From positions 1 through 7,090 of the forward strand of contig JABXJT010000143.1 in the NCBI GenBank assembly GCA_013375455.1: DNA of 7,090 nt. The letters run 5' to 3'. Below are positions 1 to 6,942 of this stretch, piece after piece; position 1 is the first letter of the stretch; every line of letters starts with the position of its first letter. The DNA is from Candidatus Helarchaeota archaeon. GTDB taxonomy: Archaea > Asgardarchaeota > Lokiarchaeia > Helarchaeales > HEL-GB-A. The notes beneath the pieces were generated by a model. That model searched no databases. It saw only the letters and a program-made list of their open reading frames with translations, and was not told the DNA's origin. A program made the translations under genes and the position numbers.

Positions 1-162
1 AGTGAAAGCTAAATCAAAAATTGAATCGAAATAAATTTGCCAATCTCGAACCAACACCATAAATAGCAGAATTCCCAATCCTATAGCGAGGAAAAGTCCA
101 AATACCATTGCAATTAAAACTCTTCTGAACCTTTTCGGACTAATTTGCTCGTAAGCATCCAT
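1..162 (-). CDS. N-terminal part of a small predicted membrane protein (runs off the left edge)
   Basis: Only the first 54 codons are present. The frame is open from an ATG at 162-160 to the window edge. The protein begins MDAYEQISPKRFRR, a short charged cytoplasmic-type tail. A strongly hydrophobic stretch follows at about residues 15-38, rich in L, I, V, F, G and M, which looks like one transmembrane helix. It is followed by RDWQIYFDSIFD. The positive residues just before the helix suggest an inside N-terminus. An in-frame ATG six bases earlier (168-166) abuts the Shine-Dalgarno sequence, so the ATG at 162 with a 6-base spacer is the better start. No family can be named from this fragment. 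That it is a real gene is supported by the strong ribosome binding site and the membrane-like composition; its function is unknown. Confidence 0.7.
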   Translation of the reverse strand, partial: MDAYEQISPKRFRRVLIAMVFGLFLAIGLGILLFMVLVRDWQIYFDSIFDLAFT

Positions 163-335: not shown

Positions 336-2507
336 TCAGGAATTAGATGCCTTTTTGGATTTTTCTTTTTTCTTTTGATATCGTTTTTGGATATCTTCGT
401 GATTTACCCAATTAACACAGCTATTAAATGGTCGGCTACCTGCAATTTTTATGGACACCATTGGGTATTCCTTATTATATTTATCTCTGCAATAGGCGCA
501 AATTTTTTTAGGCATGGGTGAAATTTTACCTCGTTGGGAAATAGGAAATGAGTTTTGACAGTCTGGATAGCTAGTACATCCTATAAATCTCTTTTTTGTT
601 GCCTTCGAGCGAATTATGATCAAATCACCATCGCCGCATTTGTCACATTTCCCAATATAACTTTGTCTTTTCCAAGTCTTTCGGATTGATACCGCGAGAT
701 CATTTCCAATGAGTTGCTCATCATCTTTAAAATCCATCAGGATGGGTTCTAGATTATTTCTGACATCATCCAATACGCGATTTTTAGTTAATTGGCCTTT
801 CTCGATGGTTTCCATTTCTTTTTCTAATTGTTTTGTCATTTCAATCGAGAGAACTTGAGGGCAATGTATGGCTAAAGTTTCAGAGACGGCGGCACCAATA
901 TCGGAAATATGAATACTCTTTTCGAATAAATATCCTCTATCATATAATTTATCAATTATACTTGCACGAGTTGCTTTTGTACCTATTTCTTCCTTTTCCA
1001 TAAATTTTCGCAGGGAATTTTGGTTGTATCTTGAAGGGGGTGAGCTATATTTTTCCACCAGATCCATACTTAGTTTCATCTTTTGGCCTTGCCGAATTTC
1101 AGGAAGGATGATCTCCTTCGATTTGGCAAAAGGGTAATATTCCATCCAACCTAGAACTTTAATTCGTCGTCCCCTTAAATAGAATTTATATTTTTCTAGT
1201 TCTAACAAAATACGAATTGATGTTACGATGGCAGGATCTCCAAAAAGAGCAAGAAATCGACGGACGACTAAATTAAATATGTTTTTTTCCAAGTTAGATA
1301 ATTTTTTTGCGGGAACTTCACCTGTTGGCAAAATTGGTGGATGCGCTGGGTCAGTTTTCTTTCCTTTCGTTGGAGTTAAATCAGGTTTGGCAAATATTTC
1401 ATCAACATACTTGGTATAAGTCTTTATAGATTTTAATTTGGTTAATATATCTTTTATATCGATGGTTTCTGGTATGATTTCGCTTGATGTTCTCGGATAA
1501 CTAATGTAGGCACCTAGATAAAGACGCTCAGCGATGTTTAAAGTTTGTGTTGGAGCGTAACCAAAATAACGATAACTTTCTGATTGAAGACTGCTTAAAT
1601 TAAAAGGGATAGGTGGAGCATTTGTTGATTCTTTTGTCTTAATATCTTTAACCGTCCCTTCCCCATTTTTGCAATCGTTGATAACTTGTTCCGCCTCTTT
1701 TTTATATTGTATTTTTGCTTTTGAAAAATCCACGTCGTATTCCTTTTCATTTAATTGAGTGCTTGCTTTGACTTGCCAGTATGGTGTGGGTACGAAAACG
1801 TTAATTTGCTTTTCTTTTTCAAAAACTGTAGCCAAGGTGGGACCTTGAACACGCCCAATACTAAGCAAATAGTAATTTATACCTTCGGCAGTTTTGGCGG
1901 CTAATGTTAAAGCATGAGTTAAATTAATACCATATACGTAATCAACTTCATGCCTACAGAGACCAGCATCAATTAAATTAAAATTTAAAGATTTGAGTGG
2001 ATTTTTATAAGATTCCAAGATGTCTTTTTTGGTTAGAGTCGAGAATTTCATTCTTTTGGCTTTTTTTGTTGCTTCTGGACCACAACAAAACTGTAGAATG
2101 TTGTACCCAATCGTGGCTCCCTCAAGATCATAATCACAAGCATTTACATGGGTTTCGCATTGTGATGACAGATCTTTTATATTATTAACTATTTTTTCGA
2201 CATCCAATGCTCTTTTTCTCTGTTTTTTACTCTTTGTCCTCTTTAAAACTTCATTAGCAGGTACCCATTTCATATCAAAAATAGGATACGACCATCCTTT
2301 TTGCCCAGGTTGTTTAATTTCTTCGATCGTGAATAAGTGGCCTAAAGCGGAAACTATAACCAAGTCATCCCCGTCTCGTTTGGCCTGATAATACGTAACT
2401 CCGTCAACATTCATCTTTTTGGGTTTACCCTGCTCATCTAGAATTTCAGAAATTTTCTTCATTGCCGTGGGTTTTTCCGCAATAATCAAGGTGGCCATGA
2501 TAATCAT
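336..2507 (-). CDS. topA: DNA topoisomerase I, archaeal type IA
   Basis: This enzyme relaxes negatively supercoiled DNA by cutting one strand and passing the other through the break, with a transient 5'-phosphotyrosine link. The 723-residue protein starts with a TOPRIM domain: Glu11 in LIIAEKP and the acidic triad Asp125, Asp127, Glu129 in DYDLEG. It continues with GRVQGPT (218-224), the catalytic Tyr337 in ISYPRTSSE, AHPPILPTG around His389, and GTKATRASI (509-517). The C-terminus has a C4 zinc finger (Cys621, Cys624, Cys644, Cys650). A second, degenerate finger (Cys670, Cys673, Cys697) has His703 near the place of the missing fourth Cys. A lysine-rich tail ends the protein. Length and order match archaeal topoisomerase I. 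Two in-frame ATGs exist, at 2507 and 2498; the second gives MATLIIAEKP, closest to the family's usual N-terminus. Neither has a well-placed Shine-Dalgarno site. The gene is divergent from the ligase, 110 bp away. No intein or frameshift interrupts it. Confidence 0.96.
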   Translation of the reverse strand: MIIMATLIIAEKPTAMKKISEILDEQGKPKKMNVDGVTYYQAKRDGDDLVIVSALGHLFTIEEIKQPGQKGWSYPIFDMKWVPANEVLKRTKSKKQRKRALDVEKIVNNIKDLSSQCETHVNACDYDLEGATIGYNILQFCCGPEATKKAKRMKFSTLTKKDILESYKNPLKSLNFNLIDAGLCRHEVDYVYGINLTHALTLAAKTAEGINYYLLSIGRVQGPTLATVFEKEKQINVFVPTPYWQVKASTQLNEKEYDVDFSKAKIQYKKEAEQVINDCKNGEGTVKDIKTKESTNAPPIPFNLSSLQSESYRYFGYAPTQTLNIAERLYLGAYISYPRTSSEIIPETIDIKDILTKLKSIKTYTKYVDEIFAKPDLTPTKGKKTDPAHPPILPTGEVPAKKLSNLEKNIFNLVVRRFLALFGDPAIVTSIRILLELEKYKFYLRGRRIKVLGWMEYYPFAKSKEIILPEIRQGQKMKLSMDLVEKYSSPPSRYNQNSLRKFMEKEEIGTKATRASIIDKLYDRGYLFEKSIHISDIGAAVSETLAIHCPQVLSIEMTKQLEKEMETIEKGQLTKNRVLDDVRNNLEPILMDFKDDEQLIGNDLAVSIRKTWKRQSYIGKCDKCGDGDLIIIRSKATKKRFIGCTSYPDCQNSFPISQRGKISPMPKKICAYCRDKYNKEYPMVSIKIAGSRPFNSCVNWVNHEDIQKRYQKKKEKSKKASNS

Positions 2508-2617: not shown

Positions 2618-4396
2618 ATGAGATACGGGTTATTATCGAAGGCATATGAGCAGTTGGAGTCTACCTCAAAGCGCTTAGAGATGACTGACATCTTAGCTCA
2701 GTTATTTAAAGAGACTCCAATTGATATTATTGATAAAGTCATTTTTCTTACTCAGGGTAAATTACATCCATCTTGGTTAGGACTGGATGTAATCGGACTT
2801 GCGGAAAAATCTTTAATCAAGGCGGTAGCTCAAGCGACTAATTTAAACGAAGATAAAATCAGTAAAAAAGTTATAAAAATTGGTGATATAGGGTCTGCTT
2901 TTAAAGATATTATCTTAATAAAACGAAAACAAAAGAGTTTAGCCGATTTTGGTATGAAAAAGAAAGCGAAGCAGCCATTAACTGTTGAAAAAGTATACTC
3001 GAAACTTAATAACATTGCCAAGGCTTCAGGTACTGGTTCTGCGGATTTTAAAATCAAGGAATTAGCGGATTTAATAAGGAATACAACCGCAATTGAAGGA
3101 AAATGGCTTTTAAGAACTGCGCAAGGAAAATTACGGTTTGGTGTGGCAGAATCCACGATATTAGATGCTTTAGTACTTGCATTTACGACTGATAAGAATA
3201 ATAAACAATATATTGAACGTGGCTATAATATTCACCCCAATCTAGGGAAAATTGCCAAAATTTTAGCAAATCAAGGTCTAGAAGCCATCAAAAAAATGAA
3301 GATAGAGCTTTTCACCCCAGTAAGAATGATGCTAGCTCAGAGATTATCATCCATTGAAGAAATTCTAGAAAAGCTCGGGGGAAAATGCGCTTGCGAATAT
3401 AAATATGACGGAGAACGGCTTCAGATTCATCTTGATGATGAGGTAATGCTATATACGAGGAATTTAGAGAATGCCACTACTCAATATCCTGATGTACAAA
3501 AGCTTGTCCGGGAGCTTGATATTGATAAGGCAGTAATTGAAGGTGAGGTTGTCGCCGTGGATTCCTCTGGTGGATTACGGCCGTTTCAAGAACTGATGCA
3601 CCGAAGAAGGAAATATGGAATTAAGGAAGCTGTCGAAAAATACCCAATTAATCTATTTCTCTTTGATATCTTAAAAAGAGATGAGAAAGATCTTATTGAT
3701 GAGCCATACACAGTCCGTCGAGAAAATTTAAAACAGATTGTTAGAGAAACTGAGCGTTTAAGGTTGGGGAAAGCAATAATTTCTGATAATATCCTCGAAA
3801 TTGAAGAATTTTTTAACTCTTCGATTGAATCAGGTTGCGAAGGGATTATCGCAAAGTCTATCCAAAAAGAATCTGTATATCAGGCTGGCGCGAGAGGATG
3901 GCTCTGGATAAAGCTCAAGGAATCATATCAGAGTAAAATGGCGGATAATATCGATATAGTGGTTGTTGGGGCTTTCTGGGGGCGCGGAAAGCGAGCCCAG
4001 ACGTACGGAGCTCTTTTATGTGCAGTTTTTGATGAGGAGGAGGGCAATTATAAGACTATCTGTAAAGTCGGTTCAGGATTTAGTGATTCTGACCTCGCGC
4101 TCTTCCTTCAGAAATTTGAAGAAGTTAAGAGAGATACAAAGCCTCCACAAGTGAAATCAGTGATCAAGCCGCCACCCGATGTTTGGTTTGACCCTCTAAT
4201 AGTGACAGAAATTGCTGGAGATGAAATTACGTTGTCAAACGTGCATTTAGCGGGATTTGGTAAAGTAAAGACAAATTCGGGGCTTGCTATCCGATTTCCG
4301 AGGTTCATTCGCTGGCGTGAAGATAAATCCATAGAAAATATAACTACAACCGAAGAAATTATAGATATGTACAAACGACAAAGAAAAACCGTTTAA
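2618..4396 (+). CDS. lig: ATP-dependent DNA ligase, archaeal replicative type
   Basis: This enzyme seals nicks during replication and repair through an enzyme-AMP and a DNA-adenylate intermediate. The 592-residue protein has the usual three domains. The N-terminal DNA-binding domain (about 1-210) includes LRFGVAESTILDAL. The adenylation domain (about 230-430) has the nucleophile Lys262 in EYKYDGER, Arg281, IEGEVVAVD (307-315), LFLFDIL (346-352), EGIIAK (408-413) and WIKLK (430-434). The OB domain (about 440-590) contains DIVVVGAFWGRG and ends with motif VI, RFPRFIRWREDK (559-570). Residues 105-112, QKSLADFG, match a PIP-box core (Gln, aliphatic at +3, Phe at +6) at the position where archaeal ligases bind the PCNA clamp. 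The N-terminus MRYGLLSKAYEQLESTSKRLE matches the family, supporting the ATG at 2618 despite no clear ribosome binding site. The gene converges with the repeat nuclease gene, and the two stop codons overlap. Nothing is truncated. Confidence 0.97.
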   Translation: MRYGLLSKAYEQLESTSKRLEMTDILAQLFKETPIDIIDKVIFLTQGKLHPSWLGLDVIGLAEKSLIKAVAQATNLNEDKISKKVIKIGDIGSAFKDIILIKRKQKSLADFGMKKKAKQPLTVEKVYSKLNNIAKASGTGSADFKIKELADLIRNTTAIEGKWLLRTAQGKLRFGVAESTILDALVLAFTTDKNNKQYIERGYNIHPNLGKIAKILANQGLEAIKKMKIELFTPVRMMLAQRLSSIEEILEKLGGKCACEYKYDGERLQIHLDDEVMLYTRNLENATTQYPDVQKLVRELDIDKAVIEGEVVAVDSSGGLRPFQELMHRRRKYGIKEAVEKYPINLFLFDILKRDEKDLIDEPYTVRRENLKQIVRETERLRLGKAIISDNILEIEEFFNSSIESGCEGIIAKSIQKESVYQAGARGWLWIKLKESYQSKMADNIDIVVVGAFWGRGKRAQTYGALLCAVFDEEEGNYKTICKVGSGFSDSDLALFLQKFEEVKRDTKPPQVKSVIKPPPDVWFDPLIVTEIAGDEITLSNVHLAGFGKVKTNSGLAIRFPRFIRWREDKSIENITTTEEIIDMYKRQRKTV

Positions 4397-6942
4397 AAAT
4401 CATCCAATCTTTTATTTGCTTGTAGGTCTAACCTCTTATCAAGCGCGTAAATTTTTTCAATTAACGATTGTATTTTCTTTTTATTAGTAGGAGTTATCTC
4501 TGCTCTTAATTGCTGAATCAATTCATTTTTGGAACAAAAGATAATTTGACACCCATTTTTTTTCTGAATTAAATTCACATCACCTTTTAGGAGATAAATT
4601 TTCATTTTTTTAGCCATCAGTGTATATATTTCCCATTCCTTAACACTAATACTCGTAAAACTCCTTTTAATCTCAATAATTGTATCAAACCTTTGCCCCA
4701 CTTTCAAATGAATACTTTTTCCTATAATTTTAAGAGGAATTTTGGAAAAATCATGAACAACACAGTCAGGTATAACGTATTTTTGCTTATATTTTTCTAA
4801 CAAAGGGTGAAATACCCTAAATTTATGGAGATCATATAAAATTTCCATACAATCCTTTCCAACTTTATCGAAAATCACACCCTCCTTTATAGCTTCTTCT
4901 AATTCATATGTTTGATACCCCCGAGCTTCTAAAAATCCATTCCAAGTCAGCCCTTCACGGATCAAATAAGTAGAAAACCCTCCAAATTTCTTTCCTACTT
5001 CCGCAAGATGAGGTGATCGTCCATAAATCTCAACATAATCAGCAACCCAATCTTCTACCGACTTGATAGTGGCAGATTCTGACCAATTGTATTCACCCCC
5101 AAAATTAGGAGTATGGCCCCGCGTCTTCAAAAGCTCATTGTAAGTCAGCTTCTTGCCTGTCAAATAGTGTTGAAATCCCCCAAATTTCCCCCGTACTTCC
5201 TTATAATAGGGTGATCGCCCATGAGCCTTAACAAAATCAGCAATCCACTTCTCTACCGATTTAATAGTTGCAGGGTCCGACCAATCGTGCTCATATTTTA
5301 CATTAGGGACATAACCCCGCGCCTTTAAAAACTCGTTGTAAGTCAGCTTCTTACCTGTTAAATAGTATTGAAATCCCCCAAATTTCTCTTGTAATTCCCT
5401 AAAAAAAGGTGATCGCCCATGAGCCGTAACAAAATCAGCAACCCACTTTTCTACCGATTTAATAGTTGCAGGGTCTGACCAATCGTGCTTATATTCTAAA
5501 TTAGGGACATGGCCCAGCACCTTCAAAAACTTGTTGTAAGTCAACTTTTCATGTTCCAAATAATGAGTGAAACCCCCAAATTTCTCCTGTAATTCCCTTA
5601 AAAAAGGTGATCGCCCATGAGCCGTAACAAAATTAGCAACCCACTTCTCTACCGACTTAATAGTAACAGGGTCTGACCAATCGTGTTTATATTCTAAATT
5701 AGGGACATGGCCCCGCGCCTTCAAAAACTCGTTGTAAACCAATTTTTCATTTTTCAGATAGCGTTGAAATCCCCCAAATTCCTTTATCAACTCTGCAAGA
5801 TAAGGTGATCGCCCATGAGCCGTAACAAAATCAGCAACCCACTTCTCTACCGATTTAATAGTGGCAGGATCTGCCCAATTATAAACATATTCTATATTAG
5901 GAGTATAGTCCCGTGCTTTCAAAAAACCATTCCAGGTCAGTTTCTCTTGTCTTAGAAAATTAGAAAATCCACCAAACTTCTTCATCACCTCTCTATGATG
6001 AGGTACTCGTCCATTAGTTTGAGTAAAATCTGCAACCCAATCCTCTACCACCTTAATAGTAGCAGGATCTGCCCAATTATATATTATCTCTTTATTTAGG
6101 GGAATTTTACATTCTTTCAAGAATTGATTATAGGTCCTATTATAAACTTTTGCTTCATAATCGAGAAATCCCCCAAATTGAGCATATAATTGCTTACTTA
6201 TTGGAGCCTTTTTAAATTGCTTGTAATGATTAATAACCCATTGCTGAATTTCTTCTCTTTTTCCACGGATTTCCCATTTAGAAGTAGGTAATCTCACGTA
6301 TTTTCTATTATCAATTTTGATTTTTTCCAAATTTTTAATGTAAAAATTAATATCATAAAATTTTGAACCGTGCCCATAAATAGCTGTATTCTCACTCAAT
6401 AGAATATTATTCAGCTTTTTTTCTAAGGTTTCGATTTCTCCTCGAATTAATTTTTGTTGTATAATGGGATTTTCAGGGAGGTGGAGAAATTTATGTAAAT
6501 TAATGTTATTTTTAAGAATATACTTATACTTAACAATTGATTTATCAAAATCACGCGCGGATAATTGTAATCTTTCACGTAAACGGCCGAGAACTGCCCC
6601 CAACTCGGGATTTCTCAAAAATTTTTGATCAAAATGACTAAATTCTTTTAAAGTTTCGCGTAAGTTACCGTTCTCCATAATTTCTAAGGGGACCAGAATG
6701 CCATAACCATATTTGAAGGCATTATGTTCGAGGAAATGTTCAAGCGTCGGGGAGAGTTCGTTGAGGGGCGTCTGGTCAAGTTCGATCCATCCATTTTGAA
6801 GCGTTTCGGAATTCTTTAAATCATCACTGGGCATTTTTAATTCCATCTGAGGGAGTTCTACGCTTTTATTCGGGTCGGATGTTTCTGATTCTGGGGATTC
6901 AGCAGTTATAAGATCGTTTTTAACCATGGTTTTATTTTTCAA
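4393..6942 (-). CDS. Seven-repeat protein (homing-endonuclease-associated-like repeats) with C-terminal PD-(D/E)XK nuclease-like domain
   Basis: I do not recognise a named gene. Four parts are visible in 849 residues. (a) Residues 1-60 are polar, Ser/Glu/Pro-rich and probably disordered. (b) Residues about 60-220 form a mixed, largely helical region of unknown family. (c) Residues 223-685 hold one degenerate (67-residue) and six regular 66-residue repeats; each conserved copy contains Trp1, TIK, Trp13, GR-x-P, FGGF and a closing N-x-(F/L)-L. (d) Residues about 690-790 look like a restriction-endonuclease fold: IPD with Asp726, then IIEIK with Glu757 and Lys759, then a helix beginning VKEWEIYTLMAKK and a strand. 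A charged, coiled-coil-like helix closes the protein. The repeats resemble those associated with HNH and homing endonucleases, which are thought to bind DNA, but no HNH motif is present. The start is uncertain: a TTG at 6942 or an ATG at 6927, neither with a good ribosome binding site; the frame is open upstream to a TAG at 7026-7024 without another start codon. A TATA-like TTTAAAAAA lies at 7041-7033. A DNA-binding nuclease is the best inference; defence, mobility or repair roles cannot be separated. Confidence 0.9.
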   Translation of the reverse strand: MKNKTMVKNDLITAESPESETSDPNKSVELPQMELKMPSDDLKNSETLQNGWIELDQTPLNELSPTLEHFLEHNAFKYGYGILVPLEIMENGNLRETLKEFSHFDQKFLRNPELGAVLGRLRERLQLSARDFDKSIVKYKYILKNNINLHKFLHLPENPIIQQKLIRGEIETLEKKLNNILLSENTAIYGHGSKFYDINFYIKNLEKIKIDNRKYVRLPTSKWEIRGKREEIQQWVINHYKQFKKAPISKQLYAQFGGFLDYEAKVYNRTYNQFLKECKIPLNKEIIYNWADPATIKVVEDWVADFTQTNGRVPHHREVMKKFGGFSNFLRQEKLTWNGFLKARDYTPNIEYVYNWADPATIKSVEKWVADFVTAHGRSPYLAELIKEFGGFQRYLKNEKLVYNEFLKARGHVPNLEYKHDWSDPVTIKSVEKWVANFVTAHGRSPFLRELQEKFGGFTHYLEHEKLTYNKFLKVLGHVPNLEYKHDWSDPATIKSVEKWVADFVTAHGRSPFFRELQEKFGGFQYYLTGKKLTYNEFLKARGYVPNVKYEHDWSDPATIKSVEKWIADFVKAHGRSPYYKEVRGKFGGFQHYLTGKKLTYNELLKTRGHTPNFGGEYNWSESATIKSVEDWVADYVEIYGRSPHLAEVGKKFGGFSTYLIREGLTWNGFLEARGYQTYELEEAIKEGVIFDKVGKDCMEILYDLHKFRVFHPLLEKYKQKYVIPDCVVHDFSKIPLKIIGKSIHLKVGQRFDTIIEIKRSFTSISVKEWEIYTLMAKKMKIYLLKGDVNLIQKKNGCQIIFCSKNELIQQLRAEITPTNKKKIQSLIEKIYALDKRLDLQANKRLDDF
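4452..4482 (+). terminator. Possible T-tract terminator for the ligase transcript, inside the opposing gene
   Basis: Downstream of the ligase stop the plus strand has T6 (4452-4457), then T4 and T5 split by one C (4473-4482). These lie inside the 3' end of the convergent repeat-protein gene, because no spacer separates the two. For the opposite transcript the nearest T run is T5 at 4388-4384 in the ligase 3' end. The gene is AT-rich, so T runs are common; support is weak. Confidence 0.25.
4888..6276 (-). repeat. Tandem coding repeat array: one 201-bp and six 198-bp units
   Basis: In protein order the units lie at 6276-6076 (degenerate, 67 codons), 6075-5878, 5877-5680, 5679-5482, 5481-5284, 5283-5086 and 5085-4888. 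The first Trp of the six regular units recurs at residues 290, 356, 422, 488, 554 and 620, so the spacing is exactly 66 with no indels. Central copies share long identical or nearly identical DNA stretches, for example around 5405-5440 and 5600-5640. The outer copies are more diverged. This pattern fits growth by tandem duplication from the middle, with exchange between copies. Confidence 0.95.

Follow-up and report, generated by a model that had tools for sequence, protein, structure and literature searches.

We analyzed a 7,090-nucleotide stretch of DNA (hereafter the window) that covers positions 1 to 7,090 of contig JABXJT010000143.1 from a Candidatus Helarchaeota archaeon (assembly GCA_013375455.1). 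Its minus strand encodes a protein with six indel-free repeats, each exactly 66 amino acids (aa) long (aa 290-685; window 6075-4888), in which most of the positions noted earlier as varying from repeat to repeat are largely conserved in a close homologue at the same repeat index. This index-specific conservation supports the interpretation that the variable positions act as specificity determinants. For the protein as a whole, we favor a modular helix-turn-helix array that would direct a site-specific PD-(D/E)XK-type nuclease to DNA, a proposal that we consider evenly poised, with both binding and cleavage inferred. That the array by itself binds nucleic acid in a sequence-specific manner is predicted and appears rather probable. 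We also infer a DNA ligand (as opposed to RNA or protein), the contact residues, PCNA binding, and the biological role, for which a free-standing homing-type nuclease and a defence nuclease are both possible, as is a chromosomal function.

In the proposed mechanism, each repeat would fold as a helix-turn-helix-like unit, the constant frame of which would be made up of helices 1 and 4 together with the core. The start of helix 2 (positions 26-28) and helix 3 (positions 38, 39, 42, and 43) would touch the DNA with residues that differ per unit. The array would lie along the DNA such that six or seven units jointly read a single extended site, and the C-terminal PD-(D/E)XK-type domain would cut at or near the site chosen. 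A PCNA-binding tail may hold the nuclease on DNA.

Repeat Regularity and Index-Specific Conservation

The periodicity of the six repeats is not due to chance, because the self-identity of the open reading frame (ORF) at an offset of 66 is 0.33, compared to at most 0.09 at offsets of 64-68 in shuffled sequences (n = 200). An earlier note on this DNA had described six indel-free repeats that share Trp1, TIK (6-8), Trp13, GR-x-P (22-25), FGGF (34-37), and N-x-(F/L)-L (49-52), and all of these residues are correct. The same is true for the variable residues quoted at positions 26-28 (HHR, YLA, FLR, FFR, YYK, and HLA), 31-33 (MKK, IKE, QEK, QEK, RGK, and GKK), 38-39 (SN, QR, TH, QY, QH, and ST), and 42-44 (RQE, KNE, EHE, TGK, TGK, and IRE). 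The array had been placed at 4888-6276; the six regular repeats occupy 4888-6075, and the upper part of that range contains a degenerate repeat 0 that falls outside the count of six. The parts of the gene are as follows.

4393-6942, minus strand: 849-aa ORF of the repeat-array protein (listed with a TTG start, although where translation begins is uncertain)
6277-6735, minus strand: N-terminal helical stretch, aa 70-222, conserved across P0001, P0002, P0003, and P0005
6076-6276, minus strand: repeat 0, degenerate, 67 aa, aa 223-289, with the same landmarks as the regular repeats
5878-6075, minus strand: repeat 1, aa 290-355, the most divergent from its P0002 counterpart
5680-5877, minus strand: repeat 2, aa 356-421
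5482-5679, minus strand: repeat 3, aa 422-487
5284-5481, minus strand: repeat 4, aa 488-553
5086-5283, minus strand: repeat 5, aa 554-619
4888-5085, minus strand: repeat 6, aa 620-685
4396-4887, minus strand: C-terminal PD-(D/E)XK-like domain, aa 686-849, by motif, without family match
4765-4770, minus strand: codons of the putative PD motif, P725-D726
4666-4674, minus strand: codons of the putative E-x-K motif, E757-I758-K759
4396-4407, minus strand: C-terminal L-D-D-F, PCNA-interaction-like tail

Variation had been proposed to concentrate at a few positions, namely, the 11 listed above (26-28, 31-33, 38-39, and 42-44 of each repeat). This holds in part. The mean between-repeat difference is 0.76 at these positions and 0.32 at the other 55, although positions 33 and 44 are less variable (0.33 and 0.53, respectively). 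Seventeen positions differ in 70% or more of the pairwise repeat comparisons; nine of them belong to the list, and the other eight are 19, 50, 58, 61, 62, 64, 65, and 66.

Positions that specify a kept site should differ among repeats and agree between orthologous repeats of the same index. We compared the window protein with P0002, which has 79% alignment identity and, by its source name, comes from a metagenome-assembled genome of Candidatus Helarchaeota (an Asgard phylum). When repeats are paired by index, identity at the 11 positions reaches 0.77, which is the best of all 720 pairings (mean 0.34), and the mean orthologue difference is 0.23 at the listed positions and 0.19 at the others. 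The variable helix-1 positions differ in 20 of 36 window/P0002 cells, compared to 15 of 66 in the cassette of positions 26-45 (Fisher p = 0.001); with repeat 1 excluded, the counts are 18/40 and 8/55 (p = 0.002). Position 19 differs between the two proteins in all six repeats. Of the 66 residues per repeat, only 36 are identical between repeat 1 and the corresponding P0002 unit, compared to 53-60 for each of the other five, as if the first unit had been replaced.

At the codon level, repeats 2-5 have a synonymous difference of 0.62 within codons 26-46, compared to 0.22 in the remaining codons (permutation p = 0.0013; 1/66 circular shifts), so the frame looks homogenized and the cassette does not. 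With all six repeats, this contrast has p = 0.005 (5/66 shifts). The nine unlisted positions in codons 26-45 have a nonsynonymous difference (pN) of 0.02 and a synonymous difference (pS) of 0.67 in repeats 2-5. The nonsynonymous to synonymous ratio (dN/dS) among repeats, which the earlier note had suggested comparing by position, is 0.93 in repeats 2-5 and 1.14 in all repeats for nine core variable positions, and 0.62 and 0.58, respectively, for the 11 listed positions.

HNH_repeat Family, Modeled Fold, and Plasmid Arrays

The repeats had been guessed to be of the homing-endonuclease-associated type, which is right in kind. Against Pfam HNH_repeat (PF18780; cut-off 26 bits), the window protein scored 18, P0001 10.3, and P0004 26.9; P0002 and P0003 were not listed at E up to 1. 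Because P0004 exceeds the cut-off and the window protein falls below it, we regard the window repeats, by sequence, as related to HNH_repeat but divergent from it, and the window protein is not assigned to the family. A profile of 21 repeats (alignment A4: six from the window, six from P0002, three from P0003, and six from P0004, omitting six repeats of the near-identical P0001 and three insert-carrying repeats of P0005) aligned to a profile of P0007 repeats (alignment A5: 11 of 12, the truncated first repeat being omitted) with an hhalign probability of 85.4% over 37 columns at 24% identity. The Asgard repeats and HNH_repeat have in common the signature G-R-x-P-x-x-x-E, tandem arrangement, a nuclease link, and a variable cluster after the P and on the third helix. 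Unlike HNH_repeat, the window repeats have a 66-residue period, an F-G-G-F motif, and approximately five additional residues between helices 2 and 3, ahead of helix 3 (alignment by eye). For LexA_DNA_bind (PF01726; cut-off 23.7), all scores were below the cut-off (window 20.6, P0001 19.8, P0002 15.3, and P0004 23.1), and P0003 was not listed.

The full-length structure model is poor, with a mean predicted local distance difference test (pLDDT) score of 49.8. The modeled repeat has four predicted helices (approximately 4-21, 27-33, 37-43, and 48-54) and modestly resembles helix-turn-helix domains; its fold neighbors include DNA-binding LexA and sigma-70 chains, in which the helix-turn-helix-like domains have the same helix order. 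In this model, the 11 listed positions would lie mostly on helices 2 and 3. The earlier note had regarded variable positions that are buried or face away as grounds for abandoning its proposal; the predicted helix layout does not point to such an arrangement.

Several weaker matches were also evaluated. None of the solved structures convincingly matched the repeats by sequence, and a PDB match to the TAL effector Hax3 (E = 0.025) was judged to be repeat noise. One match at E < 0.001 was found in the viral structure library (A0A8S5S295; TM 0.23). Two PHROG matches, phrog_37736 (39.7 bits) and phrog_11403 (25.7 bits), are short and of families with no known function, and matches to NCBIfam gltA, Pfam PMBR, and Pfam DUF6344 were set aside as short and below the cut-offs. 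The DsrC chain 2xsj_C, first in the fold-neighbor list of the modeled repeat, is also the best Swiss-Model template for HNH_repeat in PMC8078820 (GMQE 0.24 and 14.67% identity; suitability threshold 0.4). We regard this as a mild coincidence at most and do not take the published template as structural support, since it is a below-threshold template and not a structural match of a model.

Arrays of HNH_repeat are also found on plasmids. With P0004 as the query, no phage matched, and the matches obtained on eight plasmids (24-27% identity) were all HNH_repeat-like; with P0007, matches were found in three phage and 66 plasmid records, of which eight plasmid stretches were inspected. On the Bacillus subtilis plasmid L001 (11962-15649), one gene encodes 14 HNH_repeats (733 bits) and the gene that follows encodes six; the array gene has 17 and 15 repeats in two further Bacillus plasmids. 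Narrower repeat patterns detect fewer copies in L003 and L004. The arrays of L001, L003 (2797-5757), and L004 (2458-5076) are annotated just as hypothetical protein and lie beside an integrase gene and a helix-turn-helix gene; L005 equals L003 over the array gene and was not counted separately. Among the Bacillus plasmid arrays, repeats are missing or added as whole units.

For the Bacillus orthologue test, 10 of 14 repeat pairs were retained (DNA identity >0.9; repeats 3, 7, 13, and 14 were dropped). Counted from the P of G-R-x-P, positions P+1 to P+3, P+8, P+9, P+10, and P+12 have variabilities of 0.58-0.88 among the 14 repeats, and only one of 70 cells at these positions differs across the retained pairs, compared to 10 of 90 at a further nine columns whose variability is 0.5 or higher (Fisher p = 0.02). 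Nonsynonymous/synonymous differing codons are 617/224 between repeats and 2/5 between orthologues in the cassette (codons 24-36), 628/638 and 10/15 in codons 1-22, and 315/496 and 8/8 in codons 37-50, with column 23 belonging to none of these regions. Judged from these sequences, the cassette contrast is genuine, though not sharp. Variability in P0007 is highest at P+1, P+2, P+9, and P+12 (0.91 each) and P+13 (0.89), closely followed by P+3 and P+19 (0.87) and two helix-1 columns (0.85). Positions P+1 to P+3, P+13, P+14, P+17, and P+18 of the window correspond by eye after allowing for the five extra residues. P0007 itself (678 aa) consists almost wholly of its 12 HNH_repeats and lacks a convincing effector domain.

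Several points weigh against the favored reading. The dN/dS ratios are not clearly above 1, and over all positions, those that vary more between repeats also tend to vary more between orthologues (Spearman 0.63). Position 19 and the linker are no less variable than the cassette; of all 19-residue stretches, the one with the highest variability begins at position 48, in the linker (0.51 vs. 0.49 for 26-44). The linker is likewise index-conserved (15/60 cells), and region 46-66 has a same-index identity of 0.82 against a pairing mean of 0.60. Of the 12 most variable Bacillus columns, six (1, 3, 6, 8, 23, and 44) are not in the cassette. Frame-limited conversion could on its own account for some of the helix-1 contrast, the cells are non-independent, and the compared regions were chosen after the data were seen. 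The array has a low net charge. Finally, the C-terminal domain has no Pfam, NCBIfam, or PDB sequence match, such that its nuclease assignment derives from a motif alone.

Some of these points suit a non-specific or structural array that binds the DNA backbone or a protein partner, with repeat differences reflecting surface drift and gene conversion of the frame. Such an array would account for position 19 and the linker being as variable as the cassette and for the overall correlation of paralogue and orthologue variability, and frame-only homogenization would suffice to produce orthologue differences at helix-1 sites. It does not readily explain why same-index identity at the 11 positions ranks first among the 720 pairings or why an index-kept cassette is seen in two distant arrays, and conversion that spares the cassette itself needs explaining. 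We consider a non-specific or structural array fairly unlikely.

The proposal of a modular reading array is partly supported, by the index-kept variable positions, which fall mostly on predicted helices 2 and 3; variation is not restricted to the listed places. Recognition of one base per module is not claimed here. A single helix-turn-helix normally covers several base pairs, and for this reason a rule of the PUF or TAL kind would probably not transfer directly. A broader reading, which we consider possible but less likely than not, is that arrays of HNH_repeat, from those of Asgard archaea to those on Bacillus plasmids, form a natural modular helix-turn-helix system for reading DNA, with two short specificity clusters per unit, gain and loss of whole units, and coupling to nucleases. 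If so, these arrays would be a third natural design alongside TAL repeats and zinc fingers and, reading DNA per unit, a natural counterpart of engineered array-nuclease fusions, in which evolution has already marked the specificity positions.

C-Terminal Domain and Tail

The C-terminal domain and the tail had passed without comment in the earlier note and are added here. Residues P725-D726 and E757-x-K759, which are 31 residues apart and were spotted by eye, are invariant in all six aligned sequences, and G-K-D-C and N-G-C-Q-I are conserved along with them. These give the domain, which was modeled mostly at pLDDT <50, the look of a PD-(D/E)XK nuclease. P0006 has an independent PD...D-A-K stretch downstream of its repeats; kinship between the two domains is not claimed (hhalign 1.6%).

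A loose L-x-[DES]-[FY] tail at most two residues from the end is present in the window protein and P0001-P0006 (7/7) and in neither of two pure arrays (0/2). Its chance expectation is approximately 0.005 each, with letters drawn from the family composition, and six of the seven proteins are mutually related. P0005 and P0006 end in a strict Q-x-x-L-x-x-F-x box (chance approximately 0.001 each); the strict PCNA box Q-x-x-[LIM]-x-x-aromatic was not found in the window protein, P0001-P0004, or the two pure arrays. These tails weakly suggest PCNA tethering, an idea formed after they were seen. Archaeal NucS/EndoMS is a DNA nuclease that binds PCNA by a C-terminal peptide of this kind (PMC8228993); it differs in being mismatch-specific, and the passages on it there do not mention repeats.

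A helical-repeat array combined with a PD-(D/E)XK-type domain could also act on RNA, as in FASTK proteins. According to PMC12687428, these proteins bind RNA and show kinship to PD-(D/E)XK endoribonucleases in their C-terminal part, and the phrase "HTH repeats" occurs four times in that paper. The low net charge of the array and its modular variable sites would suit RNA equally well. On the other hand, the fold neighbors include DNA-binding LexA and sigma-70 chains, the tail is PCNA-box-like, and HNH_repeat on haloarchaeal plasmids is found with HNH_2 (L007, slightly above the HNH_2 cut-off) or with a C2H2 zinc-finger match (L006, slightly below the cut-off). We consider an RNA-directed protein very unlikely.

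Homologues, Known Systems, and Genomic Neighborhood

At least seven relatives (P0001-P0007) were found over three protein searches of approximately 5.8 billion sequences, two of which scored only the 7,990 and 7,993 candidates that shared the most words. The repeat profile recovered at least seven proteins among the 7,993 scored candidates, and the C-terminal domain four among 256. Alignment identity to the window protein is 97% for P0001, 52% for P0003, and 45% for P0004; P0005 has the C-terminal domain in common (42%). P0006 and P0007 are more distant and match Pfam HNH_repeat at 42.8 and 586.9 bits, respectively. There are six repeats in P0001, P0002, and P0004, three in P0003, and three with inserts in P0005. 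The N-terminal stretch (aa 70-222) has identities of 78% in P0002, 53% in P0003, and 34% in P0005; it was not found in P0004, for which the best alignment (24%) lies within the nuclease region. Repeat 0 is 73, 64, and 40% identical in P0002, P0003, and P0005, respectively. Relative to P0003, conservation is lowest in the repeats (40%, with 63% for the C-terminal domain). Two scans of 84,980 species genomes and three scans of viral contigs, each with two to six short peptide patterns, gave no confirmed relatives.

This scarcity of relatives, as far as such patterns can detect them, and the Pfam name of the repeat (homing endonuclease associated) would fit a strict free-standing homing endonuclease that cuts the gene-less allele, a special case of the favored reading whose probability overlaps with it. 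The surroundings of the gene are less compatible with this. It converges with a gene for ATP-dependent DNA ligase (2618-4396, plus strand; TIGR00574, 508.3 bits; cut-off 217.8), and the two overlap by four bases (4393-4396) in a common TTAA stop, which leaves no spacer on that side. The window has no Rfam match and no tRNA gene; no long repeats flank the repeat-array gene, and the inverted repeats are just 12-14 bases, none bracketing it exactly. These features do not favor a recent mobile insertion, and we regard strict homing as unlikely. A PADLOC scan for defence systems gave no matches.

TAL effectors consist of 34-aa helical hairpins that read one base each, and engineered TALE nucleases have the nuclease at the C-terminus. 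The window protein resembles them in its near-identical modules, variable residues in a fixed frame, degenerate N-terminal repeat, and, for the fusions, C-terminal nuclease; its units are 66-aa and helix-turn-helix-like, and common ancestry is not indicated. STAR, MOON, and pTERF are likewise natural repeat arrays with variable positions and have demonstrated DNA binding (Hu et al., 2024; PMC11417379), and term counts in the main text of that paper gave no mention of homing, HNH, helix-turn-helix, or archaea. In the open literature searched (subscription journals and preprints were outside its scope), the phrase "homing endonuclease associated repeat" was absent, PF18780/HNH_repeat was named in a single paper, within a structure-modeling table, and no paper combined Helarchaeota with homing endonucleases. 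Among the matches listed for modular DNA-binding repeats or helix-turn-helix arrays, none concerned HNH_repeat by title and start of abstract.

Elsewhere in the window, an archaeal topoisomerase I gene was found at 336-2507 (minus strand; TIGR01057, 645.7 bits; cut-off 458). Positions 1-162 (minus strand) likely encode the beginning (54 residues) of a small membrane protein that is truncated at the edge of the window, with an AGGAGG a short way ahead of its ATG.

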